Shown piece by piece: positions 2,357-7,662 of a DNA stretch of 64,000 bases. The DNA lies in the NCBI RefSeq assembly GCF_016807805.1, contig NZ_CP063362.1, positions 930,001 to 994,000 on the forward strand, read 5' to 3'. The notes under the pieces are model-generated. The model had not been told where the DNA came from, did no database searches, and saw nothing but the letters and a program-made list of their open reading frames with translations. The translations under genes and the position numbers were made by a program. The DNA comes from Xanthobacter dioxanivorans. GTDB lineage: Bacteria; Pseudomonadota; Alphaproteobacteria; Rhizobiales; Xanthobacteraceae. Position 1 is the first letter of the stretch; every line of letters begins with the position of its first letter.

Positions 2357-4504
2357 ATGGATCGGCGAGACCTTCTGAAAGGGGCGGCGAGCACGACGCT
2401 GCTTGCCGCCGCGGCGGCGCTGCCCCCCCGCACGGGGGACGAGGCCCGGGGCCAGCCGGCCCCGGCCGCGCCGAAGCCGGTCTTCCGCATCCATCCCGCC
2501 ATCGGCATCGCCCGCGTCGGCAACAGCCCCGATTATTATCTGGCGCCGGAGACCGCGGCCGGCGAGCTGCCGCGCTCCGGCCCGCCGATCTGGGGCGGCC
2601 TGCCGCTCGATCCGGCGACCGACCGGCCCATCACCGCGGCCGACTTCCGCGACGCCCAGGGACGGCTGAAGCGGCAGGCCATCCGTTTTCGCATCTATGC
2701 CTATGCGAAGGGCGGCTATCCGACCGGGGAAAGCACCGAGATCCGCCAGGGATCGCTGGTGAACGGCCGGACGGTGGCCGACATCGTCTGGCAGGTCCAT
2801 GTGGCCAACAAGAAGCTCAACACTTACGCCATGATGGATACGCCGGGCCATTTCCCGGCCCTTGCCGGCTTCGAGAACGGCAAGCTGCCGCCCGTCCGCC
2901 GGCCGCAGGACGGGCCCCTCGACAATCCGGACCGGCTGCGCCGGCTGGTGATCGACCCGGGCCCGCGCGCCCTCTCGGCCCGCGCAGCCGCGGACACGGT
3001 GCTCGCGTTCGACCGGCAGACCCCGGCCAGCGGCATGGCCGAGCCCGCCGCCGCGGCGAAGGCCCCGGTGCAGGCATTGCCCCAATATCCGGTCTCCTTC
3101 CCGCAGGACCATTTCAAGCTGCACGCCCCCTCCGCGCCGCTCACGCGCCTCGGCGACATCCGCATCGAGGCCGGCTCCGGGCGCCTCATCTTCGCCCCGG
3201 GCTTCGGGGCTGCGGTCGGCATGGACGTGAACGGCGCCCTGCCGAGCGTCAGCGAATACTGGGGGGCGGAGAACACCGACTGGTTCGACGACATGAGCGA
3301 CGGGCCGGTGAACGCCCTCATCGTCTATGACGACGGCTCGACCGACACGGTGACCGGGGCCTGGGCCATGACCGGCGATCCCGGCTTCGCCCCGCAGACC
3401 CGCAACGTGGTCAGCGCCTGGGACGAGGTCTACGACACCTTCGTGCGCAAGCTCGCCCTCGCTCCCGCGCTCCATGACAACGGCGCGTTCAACCCGGACT
3501 TTACCCCCGCCTTCGAGGACGACATCCGCCCCCTGTTCCACGCGGTGACGCTGCAGCGCTGGAACACCAACCTGCCGGCCCCGGCGGTGGCCGCCCACAA
3601 CCGCATCGGCGCCATCACGCCGGCGGACGACCCGACGCAGAAGATCCCCTATTTCGACGCCCTGATCCGCAACCCTTCCGATCCGAAGACCTTCGCCACC
3701 GGCGCGCCGATGATGCCGCTGGCGCTGGGCGACACCGACCGGCCGTTCCTCACCCTCACCCACACCCAGTTCTTCCTGCTGAAGCAATGGCACCGCCACC
3801 GCTTCACGCCGGGTCCGCGCAACGCCCTGGGGGCGGGCGAGGACCTCGACCGCGTCGCCCTCGCCAACTGCCTCGGCGGGCGCTTCAGCCCCGGCATCGA
3901 AGTCTCCTTCCCGGTGCGCGACCCGAACCTCTATGTGCGGGACTGGGCGTCCGCGGGCGCCTTCCGCATCAATGCCGCCCGGCTCGACTACGCCAAGGCG
4001 CGGGCGGATGCCCCGTTCCTCTCGGTCGGCTACGTGCCGCTGCGCACCGCCCCGGCGGAGCCCGGGGATCTCACCAAGTTCATGGCGGTGCCCTGGCACA
4101 CGGACTACAACCACTGCGCCTCGCACCCCCTCGACCCCAACCCCGCCAACGACCAGGCCCTCTACTGGTCGTGGCCGGCCGAGCGGCCGGTGGTGGTCTA
4201 CCCGCAGGCCCTCGCCAGCTTCGATCCCGCCACCGGCTGGACCCCGGGGCCGCAGCTGTTCGCCATCCGCGGCACCGGCACCGCGACCCCCTATCCGGCC
4301 AATGCCGGCCGCTTCCAGGAGCAGATCACCTTCATCTCGCAATGGCACCAGGTGGGCTTCGTGGTGCAGGCGAGCCGCATCGATCCGGCCGCGCGGGCGG
4401 CCTCGGCCGACGACCCGTTCCTGGAGGTGGCCTGCGGCTTCCCCGCCGATGCCACCCAGGCGGTCGCGCCGTGGCCGACCTTCAACAGTCCGCCGGCGCC
4501 CTGA
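2357..4504 (+). CDS. LodA/GoxA-type oxidase (cysteine tryptophylquinone, Tat-exported)
   Basis: A 715-residue member of the LodA family (L-lysine epsilon-oxidase / glycine oxidase), copper-free amine oxidases whose cofactor is built from a Cys and a Trp of the protein itself. Known members oxidise an amino acid with O2, releasing ammonia and hydrogen peroxide. The family core is clear: IHPAIGIARVGNSPDYYLAPE near residue 45, the VxGAWAMTGDPGF block, and a C-terminal region with Cys505 (ANCLGG) and Trp604/Trp606 (YWSWPAERP), the likely quinone-forming pair. The N terminus DRRDLLKGAAST plus an Ala-rich stretch is a twin-arginine signal, so export in folded form is predicted. It lies 4 bases upstream of a LodB-type flavoprotein, the usual partner needed for cofactor formation. 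Substrate cannot be read from sequence. Confidence 0.87.
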   Translation: MDRRDLLKGAASTTLLAAAAALPPRTGDEARGQPAPAAPKPVFRIHPAIGIARVGNSPDYYLAPETAAGELPRSGPPIWGGLPLDPATDRPITAADFRDAQGRLKRQAIRFRIYAYAKGGYPTGESTEIRQGSLVNGRTVADIVWQVHVANKKLNTYAMMDTPGHFPALAGFENGKLPPVRRPQDGPLDNPDRLRRLVIDPGPRALSARAAADTVLAFDRQTPASGMAEPAAAAKAPVQALPQYPVSFPQDHFKLHAPSAPLTRLGDIRIEAGSGRLIFAPGFGAAVGMDVNGALPSVSEYWGAENTDWFDDMSDGPVNALIVYDDGSTDTVTGAWAMTGDPGFAPQTRNVVSAWDEVYDTFVRKLALAPALHDNGAFNPDFTPAFEDDIRPLFHAVTLQRWNTNLPAPAVAAHNRIGAITPADDPTQKIPYFDALIRNPSDPKTFATGAPMMPLALGDTDRPFLTLTHTQFFLLKQWHRHRFTPGPRNALGAGEDLDRVALANCLGGRFSPGIEVSFPVRDPNLYVRDWASAGAFRINAARLDYAKARADAPFLSVGYVPLRTAPAEPGDLTKFMAVPWHTDYNHCASHPLDPNPANDQALYWSWPAERPVVVYPQALASFDPATGWTPGPQLFAIRGTGTATPYPANAGRFQEQITFISQWHQVGFVVQASRIDPAARAASADDPFLEVACGFPADATQAVAPWPTFNSPPAP

Positions 4505-4508
4505 GGCG

Positions 4509-5750
4509 ATGGCCGACATGTCGCCCGACATCCGGCCCGACACGCCGCCGACACGGGTGGACATCGCCATCGTCGGCGCCGGTGTCGCCGGATGTTCGTG
4601 CGCCATCGCGCTGGCGCAGCGCGGCGTCGGCGGCATCGCTTTGTTCGACGCCGGCGGGCAGCCTGGCGCCATCCGCATCGGCGAGACCATCCCCGGCGCC
4701 GCCGTGCCATTGCTGCAGCGCCTGGGCGCATGGGACCGCTTCGCCGCGGCCGGGCACCTGAGCGCGACGGGCGGCACCTCGCTGTGGGGCAAGGAGCAGC
4801 CCGGCCACAACGATGCGGTCTTCCTTCCCTTCGGCGCCGGCTGGCATCTCGACCGCGCCGCCTTCGACCGGCAGATTCGCGAGCGGGCGCAAGCGCTTGG
4901 CGTTCCCGTCCTCACCCCGCTGAAGCTGCGCACCATCGTGCGCCGCGCGGCCGGCGGCTACGCCCTCGGCTTCGACGGGCCATCCGGGCCGCGAACGGTG
5001 GAGGCGGGTTTCCTGGTGGACGCCTCGGGCATCGGCGCAGTGGCGCTGCGGGGCCTGAAGGTGGCACGCAACCGGTTGGACGAGCTTGTCTTTCACTGCC
5101 TCGTCCTCCCCCTCGGCAGGCCCGGGGACGTGCCGCCCCGCACCTTCGTCGAGGCCGTCCCCGAGGGCTGGTGGTATGCGAGCCGCGTGCCCGGCGGACG
5201 CATGGTGGTCGCCCGCGCCTCCGACGCCGCGACCGCCCGCGAAACCGGGCTGCCGCAGGCCGGCGCCCTGCGCGCGGCGCTCGCCGAGACCCGCCTCGTC
5301 GGCCCCGTGCTCGCTGGCGGAAGACCCGACGAAGCCGCGACCCCGCAGGTCCGCATCGCCCCCACCGCCATCCTGAGCGCGGTGGCCGGCGCGGACTGGC
5401 TGGCGGTGGGCGATGCCGCCGCCAGCTGCGATCCGCTTCTGTCCCAGGGCATCGTCCGGGCGCTCGACGATGGCCTTGCGGCCGGCGCGGCCATCGCGGA
5501 TGCCCGCGCCGGAGTGGGACCCGCCCCGCTCCTCGCCTATCAGGCGCGCCTGTTCGCGCGCTTCACCGCCAATGTGCGCCTGCGCGCCGCCTTCTACGCG
5601 GCCGAGGGCCGCTGGCCCGACGCGCCGTTCTGGCGCGCCCGCCGCCCGACCACGCAGGAGGCTCGGTCCGCCCCGACGCCGGCGGGCGGCGGGCCATCGG
5701 CTACGCCGCGCCCTCTCCCCGCCCCGGCACCAGCACCCGCATGGCGTTGA
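4509..5750 (+). CDS. LodB-type FAD-dependent protein (maturation of the LodA-like oxidase)
   Basis: A 413-residue flavoprotein of the tryptophan-halogenase/geranylgeranyl-reductase-like group. It has an N-terminal Rossmann motif VGAGVAGCSCA near residue 21, RIGETIPGAA (the halogenase-like GE block) near residue 58, and the second FAD motif GDAAASCDPLLSQGI near residue 300. In Marinomonas the equivalent LodB is required to make the quinone cofactor of LodA. The start ATG lies 4 bases after the LodA-type stop, so the pair is one operon. There is no signal peptide, which fits a cytoplasmic maturase acting before Tat export of its partner. The Pro/Ala-rich C-terminal tail overlaps the 3' end of the convergent metal ATPase gene by 50 bases. 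Confidence 0.83.
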   Translation: MADMSPDIRPDTPPTRVDIAIVGAGVAGCSCAIALAQRGVGGIALFDAGGQPGAIRIGETIPGAAVPLLQRLGAWDRFAAAGHLSATGGTSLWGKEQPGHNDAVFLPFGAGWHLDRAAFDRQIRERAQALGVPVLTPLKLRTIVRRAAGGYALGFDGPSGPRTVEAGFLVDASGIGAVALRGLKVARNRLDELVFHCLVLPLGRPGDVPPRTFVEAVPEGWWYASRVPGGRMVVARASDAATARETGLPQAGALRAALAETRLVGPVLAGGRPDEAATPQVRIAPTAILSAVAGADWLAVGDAAASCDPLLSQGIVRALDDGLAAGAAIADARAGVGPAPLLAYQARLFARFTANVRLRAAFYAAEGRWPDAPFWRARRPTTQEARSAPTPAGGGPSATPRPLPAPAPAPAWR

Positions 5751-7662
5751 GGATGACCACCACGTCGATGGCCTCCTGCAGCAGCGCGCCCTCGACCGGC
5801 TCCAGATAGCCGAAGGCCGCCGCCAGCATGCCGGCGAGGGACAGGCCGATGCCCCAGAACACGCTCTGGCGCGCCACCGCCAGCGCGCGCCGCGCGATAG
5901 CCATGGCCTCGGCGAGCCGGTCCAGCCGGTCCACCAGCAGCACCACGTCCGCCACCTCGGCGGACGCGGCCGCGCCGCGCGCGCCCATGGCCACCCCCAC
6001 GTCGGCGGCGGCGAGGGCGGGCGCGTCGTTGACCCCGTCACCCACCATCATCACCGCCCCGGATCGCCCGGACCGCTCGCCGGCCTGACGCCGCGCCGCC
6101 TGGACGCAGGCGACCTTGTCCTGCGGCGAGAGCTCCCCCGCCCAGGCATCGAGGCCGAGACTGCCGCCGAGGGCCGCCACCGCCTCCGACCGGTCGCCCG
6201 AGGCGAGGCAGATATGCCTCACCCCGCCGGCCCGCAGCGCCGCGAGCATCTGCGACGCATCCTCCCGGATCGTGTCGGCGAGCGCGATGATGCCGGCGAG
6301 CCGGCCGTCCACCGCCACCGCGACGATCGCGCTCGCCGGCGGCAGCCCCGCGCGCAACGGCGCCGGATCCCCCGCCGACCGCGCGACAACGAAGCCGGAG
6401 CCGCCCACCACCACCTGCCGGCGGCCCACCATGCCGGAAATGCCGACGCCGCCGTCCTCCTCCACCGCCCGCGGCGGCGACAAGGCGAGGCCGCGGGCCT
6501 GCGCCGCGTCCACCAGGGCGGACGCCACCACATGGCTGGACGCCTGGTCGAGGGAGGCGGCAAGGCGCAACACCTCGTCCGCCGGAAAACCTTCCGCCGC
6601 GCGGATTTCGGCGAGCCCCGCCCGTCCGTGGGTGAGGGTGCCGGTCTTGTCGATGACGAGGGCGCCGACCCGCGCCAGCTTCTCCAGTGCCCCGCCGTTC
6701 TTCACCAGCACGCCGCGCTTGGCCGTGCGCGACAGCCCGGCCATCAGCGCCACGGGCACCGCGAGAATCAGCGGGCAAGGCGTGGCCACCACCAGCACCG
6801 CGAGGGCGCGCCGCGGATCTCCCGCCACGAGCGCCGCCCCGATGGCGAGGGCCAGCGATACCAGCAGGAAGACGAGCCCGTAGCGATCGGCGAGCCGCGC
6901 CATGGGCGCCCGGCTCGCCGCCGCGGCCTCCACCAGGCGGACGATGGCGGCATAGGTGCTTTCGCCCGCAGGCCGGACCACGTCCATCTCGAAGGCGCCG
7001 CCGGCATTGATCGCCCCCGAGGGCGCCTCCTCGCCCGCCCTCACGCGCACCGGCTGCGCCTCCCCGTTGATGGAGGACAGGTCGAGCACCGCCGCTCCGC
7101 CGCGCACGATCCCATCCGCCGGAACCGTATCGGCGTGCCGCACCAGGAGCACATCCCCCGGCGCGACGGCCTCCACCGGCACCTCGTTCAGGGCTTCGCC
7201 CTCGCGCCGGATGGCGGTGCGGGGCGCGCGCGCGGCGAGCGCGGTCATCTCCCGGCGGGCGCGGCCCTCCGCGAACCGCTCCAGCTGCTGGCCGCCGGCA
7301 TACATGAGCGCGACCACGTTGCCCGCCAGCGGCTCGCCGAAGCCGAGCGCCGTCGCCATGGAGAGGGCGGCGAGAATGTCGAGGCCGAACCGCCCCTCGC
7401 GCAGGGAGCGGGCGATGTCGAACAGCAGCACGGCGAGCACCGGCAGCGTGCCGAGGATGAAGGCGAGGTGGGCCGCCTCCGGCCGCCCGAATGCCGCGAG
7501 GCCGAGGCCGGCGGCAAGGGGCAGCACGGCGGCGGCGACCAGCAAAAAGCGGTCCCGCGCGGCGCCCGGCTGCCGCATCATGGCCGCCGCCCCCAAGCCC
7601 ACCGCCCCCAAGTCCGCCGCCCCAAGCCCGCCTCCCGATGGTGCGCGGCGATACCGTCGCAT
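5701..7662 (-). CDS. P1B-type heavy-metal-transporting ATPase
   Basis: An integral-membrane metal pump of up to 653 residues. Visible motifs are the actuator loop INGEA (TGE-like), the metal-site motif ATPCPL in the membrane segment before the phosphorylation domain, the phosphorylation site DKTGTLT, and the hinge GDGVNDAPAL. The C-terminal helix carries NAMRVL, usual in P1B pumps. It has no N-terminal metal-binding domain, and the His-Pro pair of the nucleotide domain appears as SSHVV. These features place it in the TPC subgroup rather than among classic CPC copper pumps; the metal is unknown. The first in-frame ATG is at 7662, but MMRQPG starting at 7581 is also plausible. It diverges from mbfA across an Irr-type operator. 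Confidence 0.85.
   Translation of the reverse strand: MRRYRRAPSGGGLGAADLGAVGLGAAAMMRQPGAARDRFLLVAAAVLPLAAGLGLAAFGRPEAAHLAFILGTLPVLAVLLFDIARSLREGRFGLDILAALSMATALGFGEPLAGNVVALMYAGGQQLERFAEGRARREMTALAARAPRTAIRREGEALNEVPVEAVAPGDVLLVRHADTVPADGIVRGGAAVLDLSSINGEAQPVRVRAGEEAPSGAINAGGAFEMDVVRPAGESTYAAIVRLVEAAAASRAPMARLADRYGLVFLLVSLALAIGAALVAGDPRRALAVLVVATPCPLILAVPVALMAGLSRTAKRGVLVKNGGALEKLARVGALVIDKTGTLTHGRAGLAEIRAAEGFPADEVLRLAASLDQASSHVVASALVDAAQARGLALSPPRAVEEDGGVGISGMVGRRQVVVGGSGFVVARSAGDPAPLRAGLPPASAIVAVAVDGRLAGIIALADTIREDASQMLAALRAGGVRHICLASGDRSEAVAALGGSLGLDAWAGELSPQDKVACVQAARRQAGERSGRSGAVMMVGDGVNDAPALAAADVGVAMGARGAAASAEVADVVLLVDRLDRLAEAMAIARRALAVARQSVFWGIGLSLAGMLAAAFGYLEPVEGALLQEAIDVVVILNAMRVLVPGRGEGAA

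Follow-up and report, generated by a model that had tools for sequence, protein, structure and literature searches.

A lodAB-type operon of Xanthobacter encodes a predicted Tat-exported quinone oxidase and a flavoprotein partner without a signal peptide

Introduction

The oxidases of the LodA/GoxA family carry a self-made quinone cofactor, cysteine tryptophylquinone (CTQ), which in LodA is formed by C516 and W581 (PMC4417212). LodA is reported to be secreted and its flavoprotein partner LodB to be intracellular (PMC2855505). GoxA is reported to have a twin-arginine translocation (Tat) signal, predicted by TatP and linked to its presence in supernatants (PMC3948610). Because of these reports, the split between a Tat-bearing oxidase and a flavoprotein without a signal is already documented for the family. 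Here we describe such a pair at positions 2357–5750 of a 64,000-nt stretch of DNA (930001–994000 of contig C1 in a 6.65 Mb genome). This whole stretch is called the window below, and positions are given in its coordinates. The two genes make up a lodAB-type operon in a Xanthobacter species. We consider it likely that its Tat-bearing oxidase is matured in the cytoplasm by the LodB-type flavoprotein, is exported in the folded state, and oxidizes its substrate outside.

LodA-family oxidases have been studied as antimicrobial producers of H2O2 (PMC4699246), and an enzyme of the family has been used in a glycine biosensor (PMC12605379). One subgroup, group IB, is described in PMC4417212 as including proteins of Caulobacter crescentus and one Oceanospirillum beijerinckii copy, and Table 2 of that source gives Xanthobacter sp. 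126 one group IB copy and one unplaced copy. As of 2015, the same source reports no oxidase activity for group IB and describes lysine oxidase activity as undetected in cultures of IB-type strains. It assigns the C. crescentus member a role in H2O2 formation during biofilm development.

Results

The protein encoded by the first gene matches both domains of the family. PF17990 (LodA_N) covers residues 46–338 (E 2.2e-44, 152.4 bits; cut-off 26.3), and PF18417 (LodA_C) covers residues 457–604 (E 1.5e-36, 125.8 bits; cut-off 25). Its predicted model is best matched by LodA structures. The two domains, the cofactor residues, the fold, and the adjacent lodB-like gene support its membership in the LodA/GoxA family of CTQ-dependent oxidases. 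The protein scores 221.2 bits with the LodA lysine 6-oxidase equivalog (NF038172, cut-off 600) and 144.8 bits with the GoxA glycine oxidase equivalog (NF038173, cut-off 750), and it is outside both. The NCBIfam LodA search, run over 398 genomes of the phylum, gave matches in 12 of them, with 0 above the cut-off.

The second gene starts four bases after the stop codon of the first. Its product scores 199.8 bits with GoxB, 194 with LodB, and 163.9 with QhpG, for which the cut-offs are 400 (NF038174), 400 (NF038171), and 240, respectively. It is therefore a relative, not an equivalog, of LodB and GoxB. Among its 16 solved relatives, CmlS (3i3l) ranked first and peptidyl tryptophan dihydroxylase (7ctq) third. 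The LodA/LodB-type gene pair named in the original prediction, which was made from the DNA letters, is thus borne out by the domains of the oxidase and the profile matches of the flavoprotein.

The oxidase begins with MDRRDLLKGAASTTLLAAAAALPP, a twin-arginine motif ahead of a mildly hydrophobic stretch (MDRRDLLKGAASTTLLAAAAAL). The two arginines are residues 3 and 4 (codons 2363–2368). The genome encodes TatC (206.9 bits), the Tat component that was searched for. Of the 13 best full-length proteins, P0001 and P0003–P0014, 12 retain the motif DRR[DAE]LLK; the exception is P0011. No signal peptide was seen in the sequence of the flavoprotein, and its flavin adenine dinucleotide (FAD) motif GAGVAG starts at residue 23, so there is little space for an N-terminal signal. 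Both the signal on the oxidase and its absence from the partner had been anticipated.

The cofactor residues were located with LodA numbered as in the 3weu chain, which agrees with the residue numbers of PMC4417212. C516, the cysteine of PWQADFFNC, aligns with Cys587 of the window protein (PWHTDYNHC). W581, the second tryptophan of YWWPPQSP, falls on Trp606 (YWSWPAERP) when LodA 573–655 is aligned to the LodA-like protein of locus L018, and the column is the same against locus L124. Conservation was read from an alignment of 364 rows, made up of P0001, 360 listed matches from three protein sets, and three locus proteins; counts refer to the 361 P rows. Asp583, Cys587, and Trp606 are invariant in them. 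The GoxA counterpart of Asp583, Asp678, is discussed in PMC7876137.

These positions correct the original prediction in part. It had proposed Cys505 and Trp604 or Trp606 as the likely cofactor residues, about 100 residues apart, and had taken this spacing as a sign of a subgroup distinct from LodA and GoxA. Alignment to the known enzymes places Cys587 and Trp606 on the cofactor positions. Cys505 aligns with LodA C442, and this position is a cysteine in 332 of 361 rows. By the refuting condition stated with the prediction, this candidate falls, but a cysteine is present at the proper position, Cys587. Trp606 stands; Trp604 was rejected, being Phe in 120/120 proteins of the third set. Cys587 and Trp606 are 19 residues apart, compared with 65 in LodA, so spacing no longer argues for a new subgroup. 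The oxidase is nevertheless distinct in being outside both equivalogs and on another branch than GoxA in a 120-row tree. An initial reading of our own took Trp663 as the cofactor tryptophan and was dropped once LodA numbering put W581 at Trp606. P0072 and P0087 have no Trp663; since this is not the cofactor tryptophan, its absence does not mean cofactor loss.

In two Tat-bearing relatives, P0012 and P0014, Gly occupies the position of Cys505, and NPGLQYPF is found where most others have SPGI. Because of these replacements, their active site may differ.

The distribution of the signal was examined in the best 120 proteins of each of three sets of matches: relatives of the window protein (478 matches), a near-GoxA set (569), and a third branch (821). 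Tat signals were called by a script for motif and hydrophobicity, with corrections by eye. P0015–P0017 (fragments) and P0262 had no anchor for the count, and P0002, a LodB protein, was excluded. Among the first set plus the window protein (n = 121), 14 proteins have a Tat signal, 104 have fewer than 18 residues ahead of the domain, and 3 are fragments. The near-GoxA set has the signal in 113/120 by script and in 3 more by eye (RRRDFLAG; P0123, P0127, P0128); the 4 that remain are two proteins without an extension, P0154, and P0174. The third set has it in 97/120 by script, alongside 15 with a hydrophobic stretch and no Arg pair, 4 with a signal-less extension, 3 with no extension, and 1 without an anchor.

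Ten of those 15 carry a single-Arg motif, TR[AG][ED]FLRAS (P0327, P0332, P0335, P0336, P0338, P0340, P0342, P0343, P0349, P0356), and the other 5 resemble truncated starts by eye. Kin of the single-Arg proteins, for example P0330, have TTRREFLRAS, and several single-Arg proteins then show a lipobox-like Gly-Cys or similar. Judged by these motifs, the ten could be degenerate Tat substrates or lipoproteins of the general secretory (Sec) pathway.

At the DNA level, 547 stretches from titled genome records were confirmed, and the 79 best loci were examined. Among these, only L030, a Xanthobacter, has a Tat signal; L057 was unreadable because of a broken frame. Arg pairs flagged upstream by the script in L042, L043, L065, L067, L070, L073, and L093 were rejected by eye, as they stand ahead of the likely start codon or have no hydrophobic stretch. 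Two LodA-family proteins elsewhere carry the signal, L124 (259–2445, minus strand; SRREFLGLLAG) and L140 (SRRDFLGLMSG). The former is a LodA equivalog (666.1 bits; cut-off 600).

Trees were built from chosen subsets of 65, 120, and 37 rows. On the 65-row tree, the 14 Tat rows require 2 changes, against a mean of 12.8 after shuffling. Twelve of them form a Xanthobacter-like clade with a Shimodaira–Hasegawa-like approximate likelihood ratio (SH-aLRT) support of 99, and the signal-less P0011 is its sister. The other two, P0072 and P0087, have the motif SRRSFIQG and lie apart from this clade, amid signal-less rows. A single clade of all 14 was rejected on the 37-row tree under a mixture model (approximately unbiased test, p-AU 0.00033). 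The 120-row tree has 6 Tat changes. From these topologies, the Xanthobacter clade seems to have acquired the signal amid relatives that mostly lack one.

The oxidase is plausibly a member of group IB, as judged from its neighbors on our own tree and from Table 2 of PMC4417212. The O. beijerinckii protein L034 lies within the 34-row clade of the window protein on the 65-row tree; the Caulobacter vibrioides protein L051 lies only in a wider clade, which may contain other groups.

Table 1. Position of the two genes and of the sites discussed in the text
Feature	Position in window	Strand	Remarks
lodA-like gene, CTQ-dependent LodA/GoxA-family oxidase precursor	2357–4504 (stop included)	+	715 aa
Tat signal peptide region MDRRDLLKGAASTTLLAAAAALPPRTGDEARGQP	2357–2458, end approximate	+	sequence; kept in Xanthobacter-like clade
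Cys505, aligns with LodA C442, not a cofactor residue	3869–3871	+	Cys in 332/361
Asp583, equivalent of LodA D512 and P. luteoviolacea GoxA D678	4103–4105	+	alignment columns; 361/361
Cys587, cofactor cysteine (LodA C516)	4115–4117	+	alignment; 361/361
Trp606, cofactor tryptophan (LodA W581)	4172–4174	+	alignment; 361/361
lodB-like gene, relative of FAD-dependent CTQ maturases	4509–5750	+	413 aa; no signal peptide seen
FAD dinucleotide-binding motif GAGVAG, residues 23–28 of the LodB-like protein	4575–4592	+	

Three separate searches of the host genome each found a single LodA-like gene, the one described here. The closest named protein among the matches listed is from Xanthobacter autotrophicus DSM 431 (82% identity). 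A full-length relative of the window protein, with 71–74% identity, was found in three of the 13 same-genus genomes compared (G001, G003, and G010) and was absent from the other 10; the module is thus patchy across the genus. In these three and in the window genome, the gene order is PAP2, argG, lodA, lodB, a convergent P-type ATPase, a rubrerythrin/VIT protein, and an alcohol dehydrogenase. Over the aligned parts, identity between the window genome and these loci is 70–73% for LodA, 57–60% for LodB, and 96% for ArgG. Across the best 79 loci, a LodB relative lies at most 1.2 kb downstream in 70 and somewhere in the locus in 75.

The 3' end of lodB shares 50 bases (5701–5750) with the convergent P-type ATPase frame (5701–7662, minus strand), and the two genes lie side by side both in the window and at the three Xanthobacter loci compared. 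These three genomes also have a second LodA/GoxA-family protein with a clear Tat signal, in frames of 890–894 residues (L009 in G010, L010 in G003, L011 in G001). Of these, L009 was scored: against the GoxA model it reaches 401.5 bits (cut-off 750), and it has a ScyE-like match at 683–781. The three genome searches gave no match to a counterpart in the window's own genome. At L018, a tyrosinase-like gene, recognized by eye (34–1473), lies just 5' of the LodA-like gene and resembles the group ID arrangement described in PMC4417212.

Discussion

From what was observed, namely the family, the residues, the signal on the oxidase, its absence from the maturase, and TatC, we infer the formation of the cofactor, the export, and the order of events. 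The lodA-like gene would give a LodA-family precursor with a Tat signal, which would fold in the cytoplasm. There, as in LodA and GoxA, the LodB-type flavoprotein would assist in hydroxylating Trp606 and in cross-linking it to Cys587, yielding CTQ. The folded, cofactor-bearing oxidase would then leave through Tat, as general Tat biology suggests. Outside the cytoplasm it would, like other family members, convert an amine or amino acid and O2 to an aldehyde or keto product, ammonia, and H2O2. The quinone is thus probably built inside the cell and the oxidase exported already folded, an order that would fit both the sequence data and the published facts on LodA and GoxA.

Several points weigh against this reading. 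Cofactor formation, export, and substrate are predictions. The AlphaFold model of the oxidase is middling (mean predicted local distance difference test score, pLDDT, 70.2) and is weak exactly at residues 587–613, so that it does not show a contact between Cys587 and Trp606. The Tat script missed at least three clear signals (P0123, P0127, P0128), the signal-less sister P0011 is known from an annotated protein start alone, and the protein sets and loci comprise the best matches, not the whole family. The signal is also widespread beyond the subfamily, which would suit retention with many losses instead of gain; because Tat is common there, the tree alone is no proof of gain.

The signal could have nothing to do with building the cofactor: an immature enzyme would be exported, the quinone would form outside, and the LodB-like protein would act early or elsewhere. 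Tat is a route for folded proteins, which speaks against such a course, and so does the absence of a signal on the LodB-like protein. In published systems, the tryptophan tryptophylquinone of methylamine dehydrogenase is described as assembled after translocation, in the periplasm, and the last oxidation of a tryptophylquinone may be late (PMC7876137). The same source reports the reactions of QhpG as cytoplasmic, and the intracellular location of LodB (PMC2855505) points the same way; we regard export of an immature enzyme as improbable. Still less credence goes to the view that the N-terminus of the oxidase is a membrane anchor or a start-codon artefact. It is true that by eye there is no clear cleavage site, and none was predicted. 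The motif is nevertheless kept in annotated proteins and, at the DNA level, in five further genomes (L002–L004, L138, L139), some of which encode proteins already counted, and the linker behind it varies in length and sequence among relatives.

The signal might also be ancestral to the whole family, kept by the Xanthobacter clade and lost many times in its signal-less relatives. Its near-universal presence in the GoxA sample, its frequency in the third branch, and its occurrence in the LodA equivalog L124 would agree with this. Yet the Tat clades are nested in signal-less ones: on the collapsed 120-row tree two gains are enough, against about nine losses by loss alone. The two sequences also differ (DRRDLLKG and SRRSFIQG), and a single Tat clade was rejected. 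An ancestral signal therefore seems unlikely to us, though it deserves some weight. A stronger version of cytoplasmic maturation followed by export would hold that Tat was gained at least twice among signal-less LodA relatives, that signals in the wider family are Tat and not plain Sec, and hence that LodB-type maturation must be completed on the folded enzyme while it is still in the cytoplasm. We find this nearly balanced, leaning slightly against it. Since 10 of 120 third-branch proteins carry the single-Arg variant, the avoidance of Sec is a tendency and not a proof. If it holds, the repeated choice of Tat would mean that the site of cofactor assembly can be read from the export route, and the family would be a natural test of cofactor maturation before export.

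Overall, the finding is sound but ordinary: the original prediction read the export fairly and chose the wrong cysteine. Relatives were already known to carry this type of export signal, and the one modest new point seems to be that the Xanthobacter branch apparently gained it independently. With this operon, the family of oxidases with a self-made quinone gains an uncharacterized branch that is probably exported.

Comparison with described systems

The LodA/LodB pair of Marinomonas mediterranea (L-lysine epsilon-oxidase; PDB 2ymw, 3weu) shares with the window pair the fold, both Pfam domains, the cofactor Cys and Trp, the nearby Asp, and a downstream lodB. An exported oxidase with an intracellular flavoprotein is reported for LodA/LodB (PMC2855505) and predicted for the window pair. 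Identity is 25% over the structural alignment. In LodA (726 residues) the alignment begins with the first residues of the chain, so that there is no such N-terminal extension, whereas the window oxidase has a Tat signal.

The short cofactor spacing of the window oxidase resembles that of GoxA, where it is 15 residues, from position 682 to position 697 in the aligned P. luteoviolacea chain (Trp697 is presumably its cofactor residue). GoxA lies on a different branch of the 120-row tree, and Ser511 of the window protein corresponds to His in 120/120 of the GoxA set. In the GoxA/GoxB pairs of M. mediterranea and group II (glycine oxidase), as in the window, the oxidase carries a Tat signal (PMC3948610, PMC4417212) and a flavoprotein gene follows downstream. 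QhpG, which serves quinohemoprotein amine dehydrogenase, is reported to be an FAD enzyme that modifies Trp for CTQ in the cytoplasm before export (PMC7876137). It differs in its substrate protein and in the export route, and the LodB-like protein stays below its cut-off.

A plausible likeness to group IB comes through the Xanthobacter copy in Table 2 of PMC4417212 and through the O. beijerinckii protein in a clade read from our own sequence set. Most relatives in the first set are signal-less, whereas the Xanthobacter branch has the Tat signal.

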